Shown here: positions 121 to 64,000 of the stretch, piece after piece | Layout: each line of letters opens with the position of its first letter | Numbering within the stretch: the stretch's first letter is position 1 | From: Vibrio sp. CDRSL-10 TSBA | Lineage (GTDB): Bacteria > Pseudomonadota > Gammaproteobacteria > Enterobacterales > Vibrionaceae | DNA length: 64,000 bases | Reading direction: 5' to 3' | NCBI GenBank assembly: GCA_039696685.1 | Contig: CP155566.1 | Location: 2,604,001 to 2,668,000, forward strand | Notes under the pieces: model-generated | What the model saw: only the letters and a program-made list of their open reading frames with translations | The model's database searches: none | What the model was told of the DNA's origin: nothing | Position numbers and translations under genes: made by a program

Positions 121-1213
121 ATGGGTTTTAAATGTGGCATCGTTGGTCTACCAAACGTTGGTAAATCAACACTTTTTAATGCACTAACAAAAGCAGGTAT
201 CGAGGCGGCAAACTTCCCGTTTTGTACCATCGAACCAAACACAGGTGTCGTTCCGGTACCGGATCTGCGTCTAGACGCACTGGCAAACATTGTTAACCCA
301 GAGCGTATTCTGCCAACCACGATGGAATTCGTTGACATCGCGGGTCTGGTTGCAGGTGCATCAAAAGGTGAAGGTCTGGGTAACAAATTCCTGGCTAACA
401 TCCGTGAAACTGACGCGATCGGTCACGTTGTACGCTGTTTCGAGAACGAAAACATCGTTCACGTTGCGGGTAAAGTCTCTCCGATTGAAGATATCGAAGT
501 GATCAACCTGGAACTGGCTCTGGCTGATCTGGACAGCTGTGAGCGTGCAATCCAGCGCCAGGCAAAACGTGCCAAAGGCGGTGACAAAGACGCTAAATTC
601 GAGCTGACCGTGCTGGAAAAACTGCTGCCAGTGCTGACTGAAGGTGGTTCTGCCCGTACTGTGACTCTGTCAAAAGAAGAGCTGGCAGCCATTGGTTACC
701 TTAACTTCCTGACTCTGAAGCCGACCATGTACATTGCTAACGTGTCTGAAGACGGTTTTGAAGACAACCCGTATCTGGATGCTGTACGTGAATTCGCAGC
801 CAAAGAAAACAACGTTGTGGTTCCGGTTTGTGCCGCGATCGAATCTGAGCTTTCAGAACTGGAAGAAGAAGAGCGTGACGAATTTCTGGCGGATCTGGGT
901 ATCGAAGAACCGGGCCTGAACCGGGTTATCCGTTTCTGGTTACGATCTACTGAACCTGCACACTTACTTTACTGCAGGCGTTAAAGAAGTACGCGCCTGG
1001 ACTATTCCTGTCGGCGCAACGGCTCCGCAAGCAGCGGGTAAGATCCACACCGACTTCGAGCGCGGCTTCATCCGTGCTGAAGTAGTGGGTTACGATGCTT
1101 ACATCGAGTTCAACGGTGAAAGCGGCGCGAAAGAAGCGGGTAAATGGCGTCTGGAAGGTAAAGATTACATCGTAAAAGATGGCGATGTTATCCACTTCCG
1201 CTTTAACGTTTAA
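121..1213 (+). CDS. ychF: Redox-regulated P-loop ATPase YchF (Obg family), +1 base at 932-936
   Basis: YchF is a cytoplasmic, ribosome-associated P-loop NTPase of the Obg class that prefers ATP. The P-loop GLPNVGKST is at residues 9-17, the switch-II stretch DIAGLVAGAS near residue 70, and the base-recognition motif is NVSE rather than NKxD, as in ATP-binding YchF. The C-terminal TGS domain follows. The frame breaks at 932-936 (GTTTC). Removing one T restores RSGYELLNLHTYFTAG and a 363-residue protein, the usual family length, ending with TAA at 1211-1213. It is probably cotranscribed with pth 11 bases upstream, and a terminator follows at 1282-1307. Confidence 0.95.
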
Positions 1214-1281
1214 CCGCTGCGTTTACCTCTCCGTTTAAATAATATTCAACTCGGCTGAGGTAAAATCAGGCAGCTGAACAA

Positions 1282-1307
1282 AAGCCAACCAAGCGGTTGG
1301 CTTTTTT
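1282..1307 (+). terminator. Rho-independent terminator after ychF
   Basis: The stem AAGCCAACC / GGTTGGCTT is followed by a run of six T. It lies 69 bases after the ychF stop and separates pth-ychF from the tRNA array. Confidence 0.85.
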
Positions 1308-1454
1308 GTTTTCACGGCGGTTAAATCTGAGAAATCCGTTCAGGTCAAAGGTAATGAATCTGTTGTTTTACTAGCGCTTTTTGATCACAAACACGCCTCT
1401 TTGATTAAAAATAACCCGAACAGTCAATTTCAGGGAATTTATTCAAAAAAACTG

Positions 1455-1483
1455 TTGACGCTCCTGAGCCATATCCGCATAAT
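1455..1483 (+). promoter_or_regulatory. Sigma-70 promoter of the tRNA array
   Basis: TTGACG (1455-1460) and CATAAT (1478-1483) are separated by exactly 17 bases. A GC-rich discriminator (GCGCTCC) follows directly, typical of stringently controlled stable-RNA promoters. The first tRNA starts about 60 bases downstream. The rest of the 330-base gap 1214-1543 holds only the ychF terminator. Confidence 0.8.
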
Positions 1484-1543
1484 GCGCTCCGTTCTCAGCG
1501 ATAAGGCAACTTTGAAGCGAGTAACGAAAAGTGAAAAATTGTT

Positions 1544-1620
1544 GGCTACGTAGCTCAGCTGGTTAGAGCACATCACTCATAATGATGGGGTCACAGGTTC
1601 GAATCCCGTCGTAGCCACCA
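1544..1620 (+). tRNA. tRNA-Met (CAT), copy 1
   Basis: 77-base cloverleaf with acceptor GGCTACG/CGTAGCC, anticodon loop CTCATAA and encoded CCA. It looks like an elongator Met species because the acceptor starts with a paired G-C. It is the first gene of the array. Confidence 0.95.
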
Positions 1621-1673
1621 TTTCCTAAATGCTTTCGCTTGATTCAATCGAGCAAGAGTAATTAGGAAATAAT

Positions 1674-61336: not shown

Positions 61337-61431
61337 TTAATTCTGTCCTGGGGTACTGATAAATTTAACTGGCGCTTATTCTACGTAAATCTGCGCTGAG
61401 ATACAGGGCTTATTCCTGTCTCAGCCATTGG

Positions 61432-62052
61432 CTAGTCGAGACCAAGAGCCCGCTTAACCGGGCCGAAACTGCGCCGGTGTTCGGCAATGACGCCATGTTG
61501 CTCAATGGCCGCAAAATGGGCCTTGGTCGGATAACCTTTATGCTGGGCAAAACCAAATTCGGGATGGGCCTTATCCAGCTCTTCCATCTCCTGATCGCGC
61601 ACCACTTTAGCTATGATCGACGCCGCACTGATCTGCGCCACACGCAAATCGCCTTTGACCACAGCTTCAGCCGCCATAGGCAGCGCCGGGATCTTATTGC
61701 CGTCGACCAGCACCAGGTCCGGCTGTATTGCCAGCCCCTCCACTGCCCGCTGCATCGCCAGCATGGTGGCCTGGAAGATATTCAGCTCGTCGATTTCCTG
61801 CGGGCTGCAGCGACCGACCGACCAGGCCAGCGCTTTTTGTTGAATTTCCGGCAGCAACGCCAGGCGCTTTTTCTCCGACAATTTCTTCGAGTCGTTGAGT
61901 CCGGCAATCGGATTATTAGGATCGAGAATGACTGCCGCGGTCACCACATCGCCGACCAGCGGGCCGCGCCCGACTTCATCCACACCGGCAATACAGTGGA
62001 AACCGGCCGGAATCTGATACGGAGGAAGTTCTTGTTGCGGTTTTTTCGCCAT
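61432..62052 (-). CDS. rnhB: Ribonuclease HII
   Basis: Removes single ribonucleotides from DNA, 206 residues, intact. The catalytic DEDD residues are visible in IAGVDEVGRGPLVGDVV, LVDGNKIPAL and the later YPTKAH region. There are 54 bases to lpxB and 95 to dnaE. Confidence 0.96.
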   Translation of the reverse strand: MAKKPQQELPPYQIPAGFHCIAGVDEVGRGPLVGDVVTAAVILDPNNPIAGLNDSKKLSEKKRLALLPEIQQKALAWSVGRCSPQEIDELNIFQATMLAMQRAVEGLAIQPDLVLVDGNKIPALPMAAEAVVKGDLRVAQISAASIIAKVVRDQEMEELDKAHPEFGFAQHKGYPTKAHFAAIEQHGVIAEHRRSFGPVKRALGLD

Positions 62053-62106
62053 AATCTGCTCTGAGCCTGAAATGTTGGATTGTGTGATTAGTGTTGAATG
62101 CTTTAA

Positions 62107-63247
62107 TTAGTGTTGAACAAGAGCGAGTACGGCCTGCGCCGCCTGCTGGTCGGCGTCTTTACGAATCCAGTGATGCATCTGGTCAAATTTATCCAGCATC
62201 ACCCGGTTGTCGCTGTCGAGTAACTGGCTGACTTCCCGGTAGAGGTTATCCACGGTGCAGTCATCCTGCAGCAGCTCTTTGACCAGCTCCTGCTCGGCAA
62301 GAATATTCGGCAGCGAAACGTACTTGGTTTTAAGCAGTCGTTTAGCCAGAAATGCCGTGATAGCATTGACCCGGTAACCAACCACCATAGGGCGTTTGAG
62401 CAGCATGCACTCCAGCGCAACCGTCCCCGACGCCAGCAACACCGCGTCGGATGCCGTAATCACATTACGCGCGGTATCATCGACCAGAAACAAAGTGCAG
62501 TTCAGGGGCTATCGCCTGCCAGGCCGCTTCAAATTGTTCACGTCGTTTCTGATTGACCAGAGCGACAACAAAACCGAGGTCCGGATAACTCTGCTGCAAA
62601 CGCTGACAGGTGCGAATAAACGGCTCGGCCAGCATTTTCATCTCACTGCCCCGGCTGCCCGGCAGCACAGCCAGCCAGCGCTTCGCCGGATCAAGGCCCA
62701 GCAGTTGCTGCGCCGCCTGCTGATCACTCTGGAAAGGAATCGCATCGGCCAGGGTATGACCAATAAACTCACACGGCACATTAAATTTATCGTAGAAGGC
62801 TTTCTCAAACGGCAGAAACGCCAGTACCAGATTGGTCGCAGCTGCAATTTTAAAGATGCGCTTCTGGCGCCAGGCCCAGACAGACGGACTGACGTAGTGC
62901 ACGGTTTTGATCCCGGCCTGCTTAAGATCGAGCTCAAGGCGCAGATTGAAATCCGGCGCATCGATACCGACAAACACATCCGGCGGATTAGTGGTGAAAT
63001 ACTTAACCAGCTCTGCTTTGACTTTAAGCAAACGCGGCAGACGTCCAAGCACTTCCACCAGTCCCATCACCGCCAGCTCTTCCATATCAAACAGAGACTG
63101 ACAGCCCTGGGCCATCATCTTCGGACCACCAATGCCGACAAACTCAGCATCCGGATAGCGGGCTTTAACGGCTTTGATAAAGCCCTCGCCCAGGGTATCA
63201 CCGGATAGCTCACCTGCCACAATGCCGATACGTAGTGGTTTTTTCAC
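62107..63247 (-). CDS. lpxB: Lipid-A-disaccharide synthase, +1 base at 62487-62491
   Basis: GT-B glycosyltransferase joining UDP-diacylglucosamine and lipid X, essential for lipid A. It has GIVAGELSGDTLGEGFIKA, GIGGPKMMAQG, YVSPSVWAWRQKRI, LPGSRGSEMKML and, in the second frame, ASGTVALECMLLKRPMVVGY. Removing one base at 62487-62491 joins PELHFVLVDDTARNVITASD and gives 379 residues. It follows lpxA after a 160-base gap that contains a terminator. Confidence 0.95.
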
Positions 63248-63355
63248 GCCGAATGTCCTCTATAAAACTAACTTATGCATTTTGGGCAGCAGCTTTGAGA
63301 AAAAGCGGCTGTCCAAAAAACATGACGCACAAAACACGCCGGGCTATAAAACACA

Positions 63356-63389
63356 AAAAGACCGTCCGCAGGCGGACGATCTTTTTCCA
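63356..63389. terminator. Terminator-like hairpin between lpxA and lpxB
   Basis: AAAAAGACCGTCCGC-AG-GCGGACGATCTTTTT: strong stem with T runs in both directions. In the direction of lpxA to lpxB it would end or attenuate transcription from lpxA. Confidence 0.8.
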
Positions 63390-63407
63390 TCATCGGATTA
63401 GCCGAGC

Positions 63408-64000
63408 TTAGCGGATAATGCCACGCTCAGAGCTCTCCAGCAGGTCAACAAAGCTCTGCACAGATGACCACTCAGCCGCCATCTCTTTCAGTACGACCAG
63501 GGCTTCAGCCTGAGTTTTACCGGCGCGGTAGATCTCTTTGTACGCTTTTTGCAGAGCTCGAATTTCTGCTTTTTCAAAGCCGTTACGCTTAAGACCAACC
63601 AGGTTAAGACCAAACGGAGACGCATGGTTACCCTGCGCCAGCACGTAAGCCGGTACATCCTGAACCACGGCAGAACAGCCGCCGATGTAGGCATAAGCGC
63701 CGACTGAGCAGAAACGGGTGAATCGCTGACAGAGCCATGACACCTGCGTAATCATGCACGGTCACGTGACCGCCCAGAATCGCGTTGTTACCAATGTGCG
63801 TGTGGTTGCCCACAATCACATCGTGCGCAATGTGCGCATTAACACATAGCAGGTTGTCGTTGCCGACCACGGTTTCGTGTTTATCCTGCGTGGTACCACG
63901 GTGGATCTGGACTGCTTCACGAATGACGTTACGGTCACCGATGATAACGCGCGTATCTTCGCCGCCGTACTTCTTGTCCTGGTTCTCTTCACCAATGACA
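63408..64000 (-). CDS. lpxA: UDP-N-acetylglucosamine acyltransferase LpxA (partial), +1 base at 63711-63715
   Basis: First step of lipid A synthesis, a trimeric left-handed beta-helix of hexapeptide repeats. The visible part reads from VIGEENQDKKYGGEDTRV at the window edge through IHRGTTQD and CVNAHIAHDVIVGNHTHIGN to the C-terminal helices ending ESSERGIIR. Removing one base at 63711-63715 restores the segment around the catalytic His as SAIHPFCSVGAYAYIGGCSA. The family usually has HQF, so the Pro is unusual or reflects a further reading error. The 5' part (about 65 codons) lies outside the window. Confidence 0.93.

Follow-up and report, generated by a model that had tools for sequence, protein, structure and literature searches.

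The stretch analyzed here is a 64-kb window of the genome of Vibrio sp. CDRSL-10 TSBA (positions 2604001 to 2668000 of contig C2; the genome comprises 4.90 Mb in two contigs). Within it, 22 genes, from ychF to lpxA, are each broken by one extra base at the word GTTTC or GAAAC (Table 1), and these breaks were examined together with a phosphorothioation (dnd/dpt) locus on the same contig. The original prediction, made from the window alone, had listed 21 such breaks, all of which were located at GTTTC/GAAAC in the assembly by frameshift-tolerant alignment of relatives' proteins. Seventeen were recovered with proteins of the close relative G046. The break in the flagellin gene at 3917 to 5051 was recovered with proteins of genomes G056 and G033, with which the yafD break, below the filter with G046, was also seen; the breaks in the RAYT-type transposase gene and in mqo were each recovered with three homologues. 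A 22nd break at the word, absent from the earlier list, was found in dnaQ near its 3' end (48246 to 48956). Twenty of the 21 positions given earlier fall on the word, and the one in cheR lies about 10 bases off.

The original prediction had also held that no frameshift of another kind occurs in the window, and this stands except for a few weak calls away from the word. Alignment of proteins of G046 (49 genes), G056 (50 genes), or G033 (51 genes) revealed no missing-base break in the window. Extra-base calls more than 9 nucleotides (nt) from the word numbered four with G046 (114, 21385, 30810, and 63302), two with G056 (114 and 54906), and one with G033 (114). At three of the five places (114, 30810, and 63302), the call lies within 49 residues of a start that had been set mechanically, and the remaining two (21385 and 54906) lie in less conserved open reading frames (ORFs; 64% and 72% identity, respectively). 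The call near 54906, seen with G056 only, may represent real variation. A call at 5094 with G033, 7 nt from a word, is probably due to chance. The word itself was not overabundant in the window (155 occurrences versus 147 expected).

The same pattern, which it had been proposed to look for beyond the window, extends across 464 kb around and including it. The proteins of G046, whose DnaE is 96% identical, served as the reference and were aligned with a method tolerant of frame changes. Of 412 G046 ORFs made, 366 matched, 338 passed the filter (60% identity and 80% coverage; 338 kb), and 28 were dropped. The 338 compared genes contained 161 extra-base and 8 missing-base breaks. Of the 161 extra-base breaks, 149 lay within 9 nt of GTTTC/GAAAC (binomial P of about 1e-171), whereas 5.4% of positions taken at random from these genes do; one of the eight missing-base breaks also lay there. 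When 5-mers were counted at the 161 breaks with no motif specified, GAAAC/GTTTC ranked first (146 versus 4.8 expected). Among the 12 extra-base breaks away from the word, 8 fell no more than 31 residues after a mechanically set start and 2 were paired with a nearby missing-base break. With breaks within 30 residues of a start or 15 residues of an end removed (internal-only counts), 139 of 143 extra-base breaks and none of 5 missing-base breaks were at the word. A count of DNA-alignment gaps, independent of proteins, placed 75 of 192 one-base gains at GTTTC/GAAAC, a word outside the twelve commonest among the relative's 123 one-base gains. On the small chromosome (contig C1), which was thinly sampled, one mqo paralogue was broken at the word.

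The frame breaks are almost certainly assembly artifacts, because genes needed by a living cell (accA, lpxA, lpxB, and dnaQ) are among those broken, and the earlier statement that they are not real mutations is borne out. Real mutation, through genome degeneration, phase variation, or programmed frameshifting, would agree with the presence of the extra bases in the deposited sequence but is extremely improbable: 135 of the 338 compared genes were broken at the word, these four included, 161 of the 169 breaks share one direction, the word's run of three equal bases is too short for slippage, and relatives have intact copies. An explanation by common homopolymer or polishing errors, as a noisy assembly may contain without any modification, is very improbable as well. 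Long-read assemblies typically contain one-base errors in short runs, but the word contains a run of three only, and neither longer runs nor other three-base runs were among the commonest break words or the twelve commonest one-base gains. In addition, no extra-base break was called in four break-rich Vibrio assemblies (G001, G018, G038, and G048), and 18 of their 20 missing-base breaks lay off the word. Real mutation, plain homopolymer error, and chance were all rejected. The four break-rich assemblies are drafts (G048, G001, G018, and G038; L182, L185, L186, and L179, respectively) with 3 to 6 missing-base breaks each in 10 to 16 genes, and their breaks have a different error source.

The dnd genes, for which a search of the genome had been proposed, were found as dndBCDE and dptFGH on the same contig, about 1.4 Mb from the window. 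At about 1.196 to 1.212 Mb of contig C2, dptF, dptG, dptH, one further ORF, and an ORF with a DGQHR domain lie on one strand, and dndE, dndD, dndC, and dndB lie on the other. The DndC profile matched with 551 bits, and DndB, DndE, DptF (475.7 bits), DptG (312.2 bits), and DptH (1284.5 bits) were all above their cutoffs, so that a complete DptFGH module stands beside dndB, dndC, dndD, and dndE, which are clustered in order. dndD is split in the assembly, and both pieces match DndD (234.7 and 246.7 bits versus a cutoff of 245.85), which was accepted as present; dptH is also split. The break in dndD is at the word, and dptH is broken 2 to 8 nt from a word. No DndA match was found among the 19 ORFs of the locus that were scanned, and iscS elsewhere in the genome was not searched. 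Identities to the proteins of Escherichia coli B7A were 67% (DndB), 70% (DndC), 54% (DndD), and 65% (DndE), and identity to DndC of two Rhizobium plasmids was 45.9%. The DndC and DndE values suggest a relation to the GAAC/GTTC subtype, as judged from alignments with B7A and Rhizobium only, and do not in themselves prove the motif.

Between dptH and dndE (about 1.204 to 1.206 Mb; L088, 8434 to 10187) are an ORF of 192 amino acids, with no family match in two libraries, and the DGQHR-domain protein. Two ORFs occupy the same position in a second Vibrio genome, G085, the second of which is about 30% identical, and a hypothetical protein and a DGQHR protein are found at the corresponding place on an Aliivibrio wodanis plasmid.

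Affected sites made up a small share of all GTTC sites, 149 of the 2,655 compared on both strands (5.6%), which fits partial modification, as this predicts a small affected share. In E. coli B7A, 4,855 of 40,701 GAAC/GTTC sites are reported to be modified (PMC6459918). Bases flanking GTTC differed between affected and other sites. A or C preceded 102 of 149 affected sites and 1,154 of 2,506 others; T or G followed 112 of 149 affected sites and 1,105 of 2,506 others; and A followed 6 of 149 affected sites versus 950 of 2,506 others. Expressed per site, 88 of 602 NGTTCT sites were affected, compared to 6 of 956 NGTTCA sites. No longer fixed motif was found beyond these graded flank preferences. 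In G085, 37 of 1,400 sites were affected (35 of 1,398 for internal breaks only), and A or C before and T or G after the site were favored in both genomes. A model using flanks only had a cross-validated area under the curve of 0.83 in the genome under study and 0.85 when applied to G085. Phosphorothioate sites mapped by EcoWI-seq in Salmonella Cerro 87 are reported to have the same direction of flank preference, A or C before and T or G after (PMC9521924). The affected sites thus show the partial occupancy and both flank preferences of the GAAC/GTTC subtype, with occupancy here read from assembly errors. The agreement between the flanks of a chemical map and those of the assembly errors, together with the dnd locus, is the best evidence for phosphorothioates, and a base caller could have flank effects too.

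Some other DNA modification, such as that of a methyltransferase whose motif contains GAAC/GTTC, could likewise disturb reads, with the dnd genes a coincidence. Nanopore errors from modification at other motifs have been published (GCAGC and GCTGG in Listeria; PMC10687267), which speaks for this explanation, and the modification genes surveyed here were those of dnd/dpt. The explanation is nevertheless improbable. Only 5.6% of sites were affected and they share no longer fixed motif, whereas methylation of restriction targets is described as typically above 95% (PMC12707154). The motif, the partial occupancy, and the main flank preferences all match phosphorothioation, both affected genomes carry dnd, and dndC is present in 29 of 227 Vibrio genomes.

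The occurrence of the pattern was compared across the genus in up to 20 kb around dnaE, in the 28 other dndC-positive genomes and in 32 of the 198 dndC-negative genomes. The 32 were chosen and not drawn at random: 27 were mostly complete, and five were picked for their quality figures or a split DnaE. Among these 60 genomes, only G085 showed the pattern, and G085 has dnd too. The 28 positives yielded 5 extra-base breaks, of which 3 were at the word, all in G085, and 10 missing-base breaks, of which 1 was at the word. The 32 negatives (491 genes) yielded zero extra-base breaks at the word, with 9 extra-base and 21 missing-base breaks overall (1 of the latter at the word). In the genome under study, all four extra-base breaks called in the last 20 kb of the window were at the word. 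A further 360 kb beside the dnaE stretch of G085 was then compared. With that stretch included, 176 of 220 matched ORFs passed, and 35 of 37 internal extra-base breaks and neither of 2 missing-base breaks were at the word, and dndC of G085 is itself broken at the word. Taken as a count of genomes, the association between dndC and the errors is weak (1 of 28 versus 0 of 32); its weight comes from G085 repeating the motif, the flanks, and the spacing. Across 158 genes compared in both genomes, 73 sites were affected in the genome under study and 31 in G085, with 1 shared versus 0.43 expected under random placement in the same genes, which gives no reason to regard the sites as conserved.

RefSeq tends to leave out assemblies in which many genes are broken. 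In E. coli, dndC of this type was present in 204 of 5,426 complete genomes; 60 listed entries have annotated dnd genes, and one further dnd locus was inspected beyond these. The genome under study had a contamination value of 4.55 and a completeness of 95.9, and the contamination value of G085 was 4. These values may be side effects of split genes, and such contamination values could flag more affected genomes, though the pattern was not seen in G065 and G062, whose values are similar.

Affected sites were also spaced apart. This spacing was noticed in the data, and the results for the genome under study are exploratory. The smallest gap among the 22 sites of the window was 1,226 nt, and when sites were drawn at random from the GTTC sites of the window, 1 draw in 20,000 had a smallest gap as wide (P = 5e-5). 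In the 464-kb region, where expectations came from chance draws weighted by flanks, 7 pairs were closer than 1 kb versus 58.7 expected. No pair was closer than 500 nt (30.8 expected), 7 pairs lay at 500 to 1,000 nt (27.9 expected), and distances of 1,000 nt or more were near chance. Pairs below 1 kb were depleted both within genes (4 versus 38.3) and between genes (3 versus 20.5), as well as among sites outside the window alone (7 versus 52.7). Among the best-flanked sites without an affected neighbor within 1 kb, 22 of 39 were affected, compared to 1 of 30 among those with such a neighbor; the flank classes had been fitted on the same data. G085 had no pair below 1 kb (6.4 expected; P = 0.001), and in a first look it had no gap below 300 nt (2.0 expected). 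The result in G085 is a replication and not a blind test because the prediction was written after that first look.

A by-product of computation, from base-caller chunks, polishing windows, or the break detector, is an unlikely source of the 1-kb spacing. Base-calling chunks are said to span several hundred bases, which would suit it. In synthetic random sequences, the detector recovered both breaks of pairs separated by 30 to 500 nt in 90 to 100% of trials, and the depletion held within and between genes, in G085, and outside the window; chunk borders vary between reads and would be expected to average out. The spacing suggests that well-occupied sites exclude each other within about 1 kb. An error in the consensus needs modification in the majority of molecules, and if nearby sites are never modified together, both cannot be modified in the majority; exclusion on one molecule would therefore leave exactly such a gap. 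The odds appear about even that well-occupied phosphorothioate sites repel each other in that a Dnd complex at one site blocks other GAAC/GTTC sites within about 1 kb on the molecule, possibly through scanning or looping by the SMC-like DndD. A published model proposes scanning of the DNA by DndE while the DndD ATPase loops it (PMC10853773), and this could be the source of the 1-kb range. Optical mapping of Cerro 87 is reported to place 83% of 474 distances at 1.5 to 10 kb, on heterogeneous molecules (PMC8053081), and EcoWI-seq positions are described as consistent between independent transformants (PMC9521924). A minimum spacing was not found described in the open-license papers searched; two likely papers (Cao 2014 and Wu 2020) were outside that search.

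Taken together, Dnd phosphorothioation of a subset of GAAC/GTTC sites very probably disturbed the sequencing reads and left GTTTC artifacts that form a partial map of sites chosen by flanks and spacing. The Dnd system (dndBCDE and dptFGH) would sulfurate a small and largely fixed subset of GAAC/GTTC sites, and the sulfur would disturb single-molecule base calling, most likely on a nanopore. Wherever most molecules carry the modification, the consensus would read GTTTC instead of GTTC, and the positions of the frame breaks would mark well-occupied phosphorothioate sites. Flanking bases and spacing would determine the choice of sites, with two well-occupied sites seldom within about 1 kb, and, most simply, the modification or a bound Dnd complex at one site would prevent modification of a neighbor on the same molecule. 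The phosphorothioate origin proposed in the original prediction is thereby supported by the dnd/dpt locus, the concentration of breaks at the word, the repeat in G085, the absence of such breaks from the 32 dndC-negative genomes sampled, and the match in flanks; from these we infer the chemistry and the platform.

Several observations weigh against this interpretation. For 27 of the 28 other dndC-positive Vibrio genomes, the approximately 20 kb sampled contained no extra-base break at the word; short-read or hybrid assembly would explain these unaffected genomes. The weaker published flank preferences were marginal in the genome under study (C at -2, P = 0.06; G at +2, P = 0.04), and in G085 the preference for C at -2 was present (P = 0.001) and that for G at +2 was not (P = 0.56). 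Seven pairs closer than 1 kb exist (532 to 990 nt), and exclusion is therefore not absolute. The replication of the spacing comes from G085 alone (37 sites), which had been partly inspected beforehand. Phosphorothioation is reported to be heterogeneous from molecule to molecule, in Cerro 87 among others (PMC8053081 and PMC11662687), and fully fixed sites occupied in the majority of molecules therefore fit uneasily. In a nanopore study, five or more sites are reported for a few genes (PMC9069010), which under strict exclusion would be possible only in long genes.

Names of the window genes in Table 1, dnaQ excepted, are those of the earlier reader and are supported by domain scans of the gene pieces. 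This support is weak for flgP and the RAYT gene and is at the domain level only for flgL, flgJ, copA, and yafD. An array of 17 tRNA genes (Met, Leu, and Gln) lies at 1544 to 3641 of the window, and alignments of relatives are ambiguous in its repeated units.

Table 1. Genes of the window broken by an extra base at GTTTC/GAAAC
Gene	Position in window	Strand	Break	Remark
ychF	121..1210	+	one at word	approximate span
flagellin	3917..5051	-	one at word	approximate span
flagellin	5578..6718	-	one at word	approximate span
flgL	7270..8464	-	one at word	earlier reader's name; Flagellin_C domain
flgJ	10625..11561	-	one at word	earlier reader's name; glucosaminidase domain
flgE	15324..16629	-	one at word	
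flgD	16660..17366	-	one at word	approximate span
cheR	18697..19525	-	one at word	
flgA	20510..21288	+	one at word	approximate span
flgP	22311..22750	-	one at word	earlier reader's name; sub-cutoff LPP20 match only
flgT	23557..24691	+	one at word	
mqo	25162..26800	-	one at word	
RAYT-type transposase gene	27767..28740	+	one at word	earlier reader's name; sub-cutoff Y1_Tnp match
ompA	29789..30770	-	one at word	
copA	32743..35503	+	one at word	earlier reader's name; P-type ATPase domains
fadE-type acyl-CoA dehydrogenase	44315..46760	+	one at word	
dnaQ	48246..48956	-	at word, near 3' end	DNA polymerase III epsilon
gloB	50350..51109	+	one at word	approximate span
yafD	53441..54293	-	one at word	earlier reader's name; endonuclease/exonuclease/phosphatase domain
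accA	56852..57812	-	one at word	
lpxB	62107..63247	-	one at word	
lpxA	63408..64000	-	one at word	extends beyond window edge; name from 3' piece, below whole-protein cutoff

Much of this has precedent. Published work already documents that phosphorothioates at GAAC/GTTC cause nanopore errors and that assemblies contain errors at modified motifs, and both partial modification and flank preference have been described. Nanopore errors at phosphorothioated GAAC/GTTC were reported in Salmonella enterica Cerro 87 (Wadley 2022, PMC9069010), with the same motif, the same class of modification genes, and a signal at few of the sites (3.9% of GTTC and 4.4% of GAAC, compared to 5.6% here). Errors in that study are described in reads, relative to amplified DNA, whereas here one fixed type of error stands in a public consensus, where it breaks genes and its sites are spaced. 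The errors addressed by Modpolish (PMC10687267) are likewise systematic errors in the consensus that occur in particular strains, concentrate at a single short motif, and are linked to a modification locus, and in the genome under study too, errors at one short motif were strain-specific and accompanied by a matching modification locus. The Modpolish errors are mainly mismatches at GCAGC/GCTGG in Listeria, and the available main text of that paper names neither phosphorothioates nor GAAC. The DndBCDE-DptFGH systems of E. coli B7A and Cerro 87 are alike in gene content, motif, partial modification, and flanks (PMC9521924); the host differs here, and the avoidance between sites over about 1 kb was not found described for them in the papers searched. 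Nor did the open-license papers searched yield a description of GTTC insertions embedded in a public assembly. What is new here is that affected sites avoid each other. Density-dependent regulation of phosphorothioation, with a near-constant density of modification, was reportedly the subject of a 2020 PNAS paper by Wu. According to a review, manipulation of Dam and Dnd redistributes phosphorothioates while their overall level stays the same (PMC12707154).

In the tenth of this public genome that was examined, at least 149 breaks in genes are false and share a single cause, and further assemblies of dnd-positive strains can be searched for this word as well. The choice of a small subset of sites by Dnd has been called a mystery by the authors of EcoWI-seq (PMC9521924), and the spacing bears on how so few sites are selected. 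Flank preference combined with exclusion over 1 kb is a concrete rule that can be confirmed or rejected with existing chemical maps. If it is true, flank preference and exclusion would account for the small share of sites modified, and published dnd-positive assemblies would be ready-made maps on which to test it.

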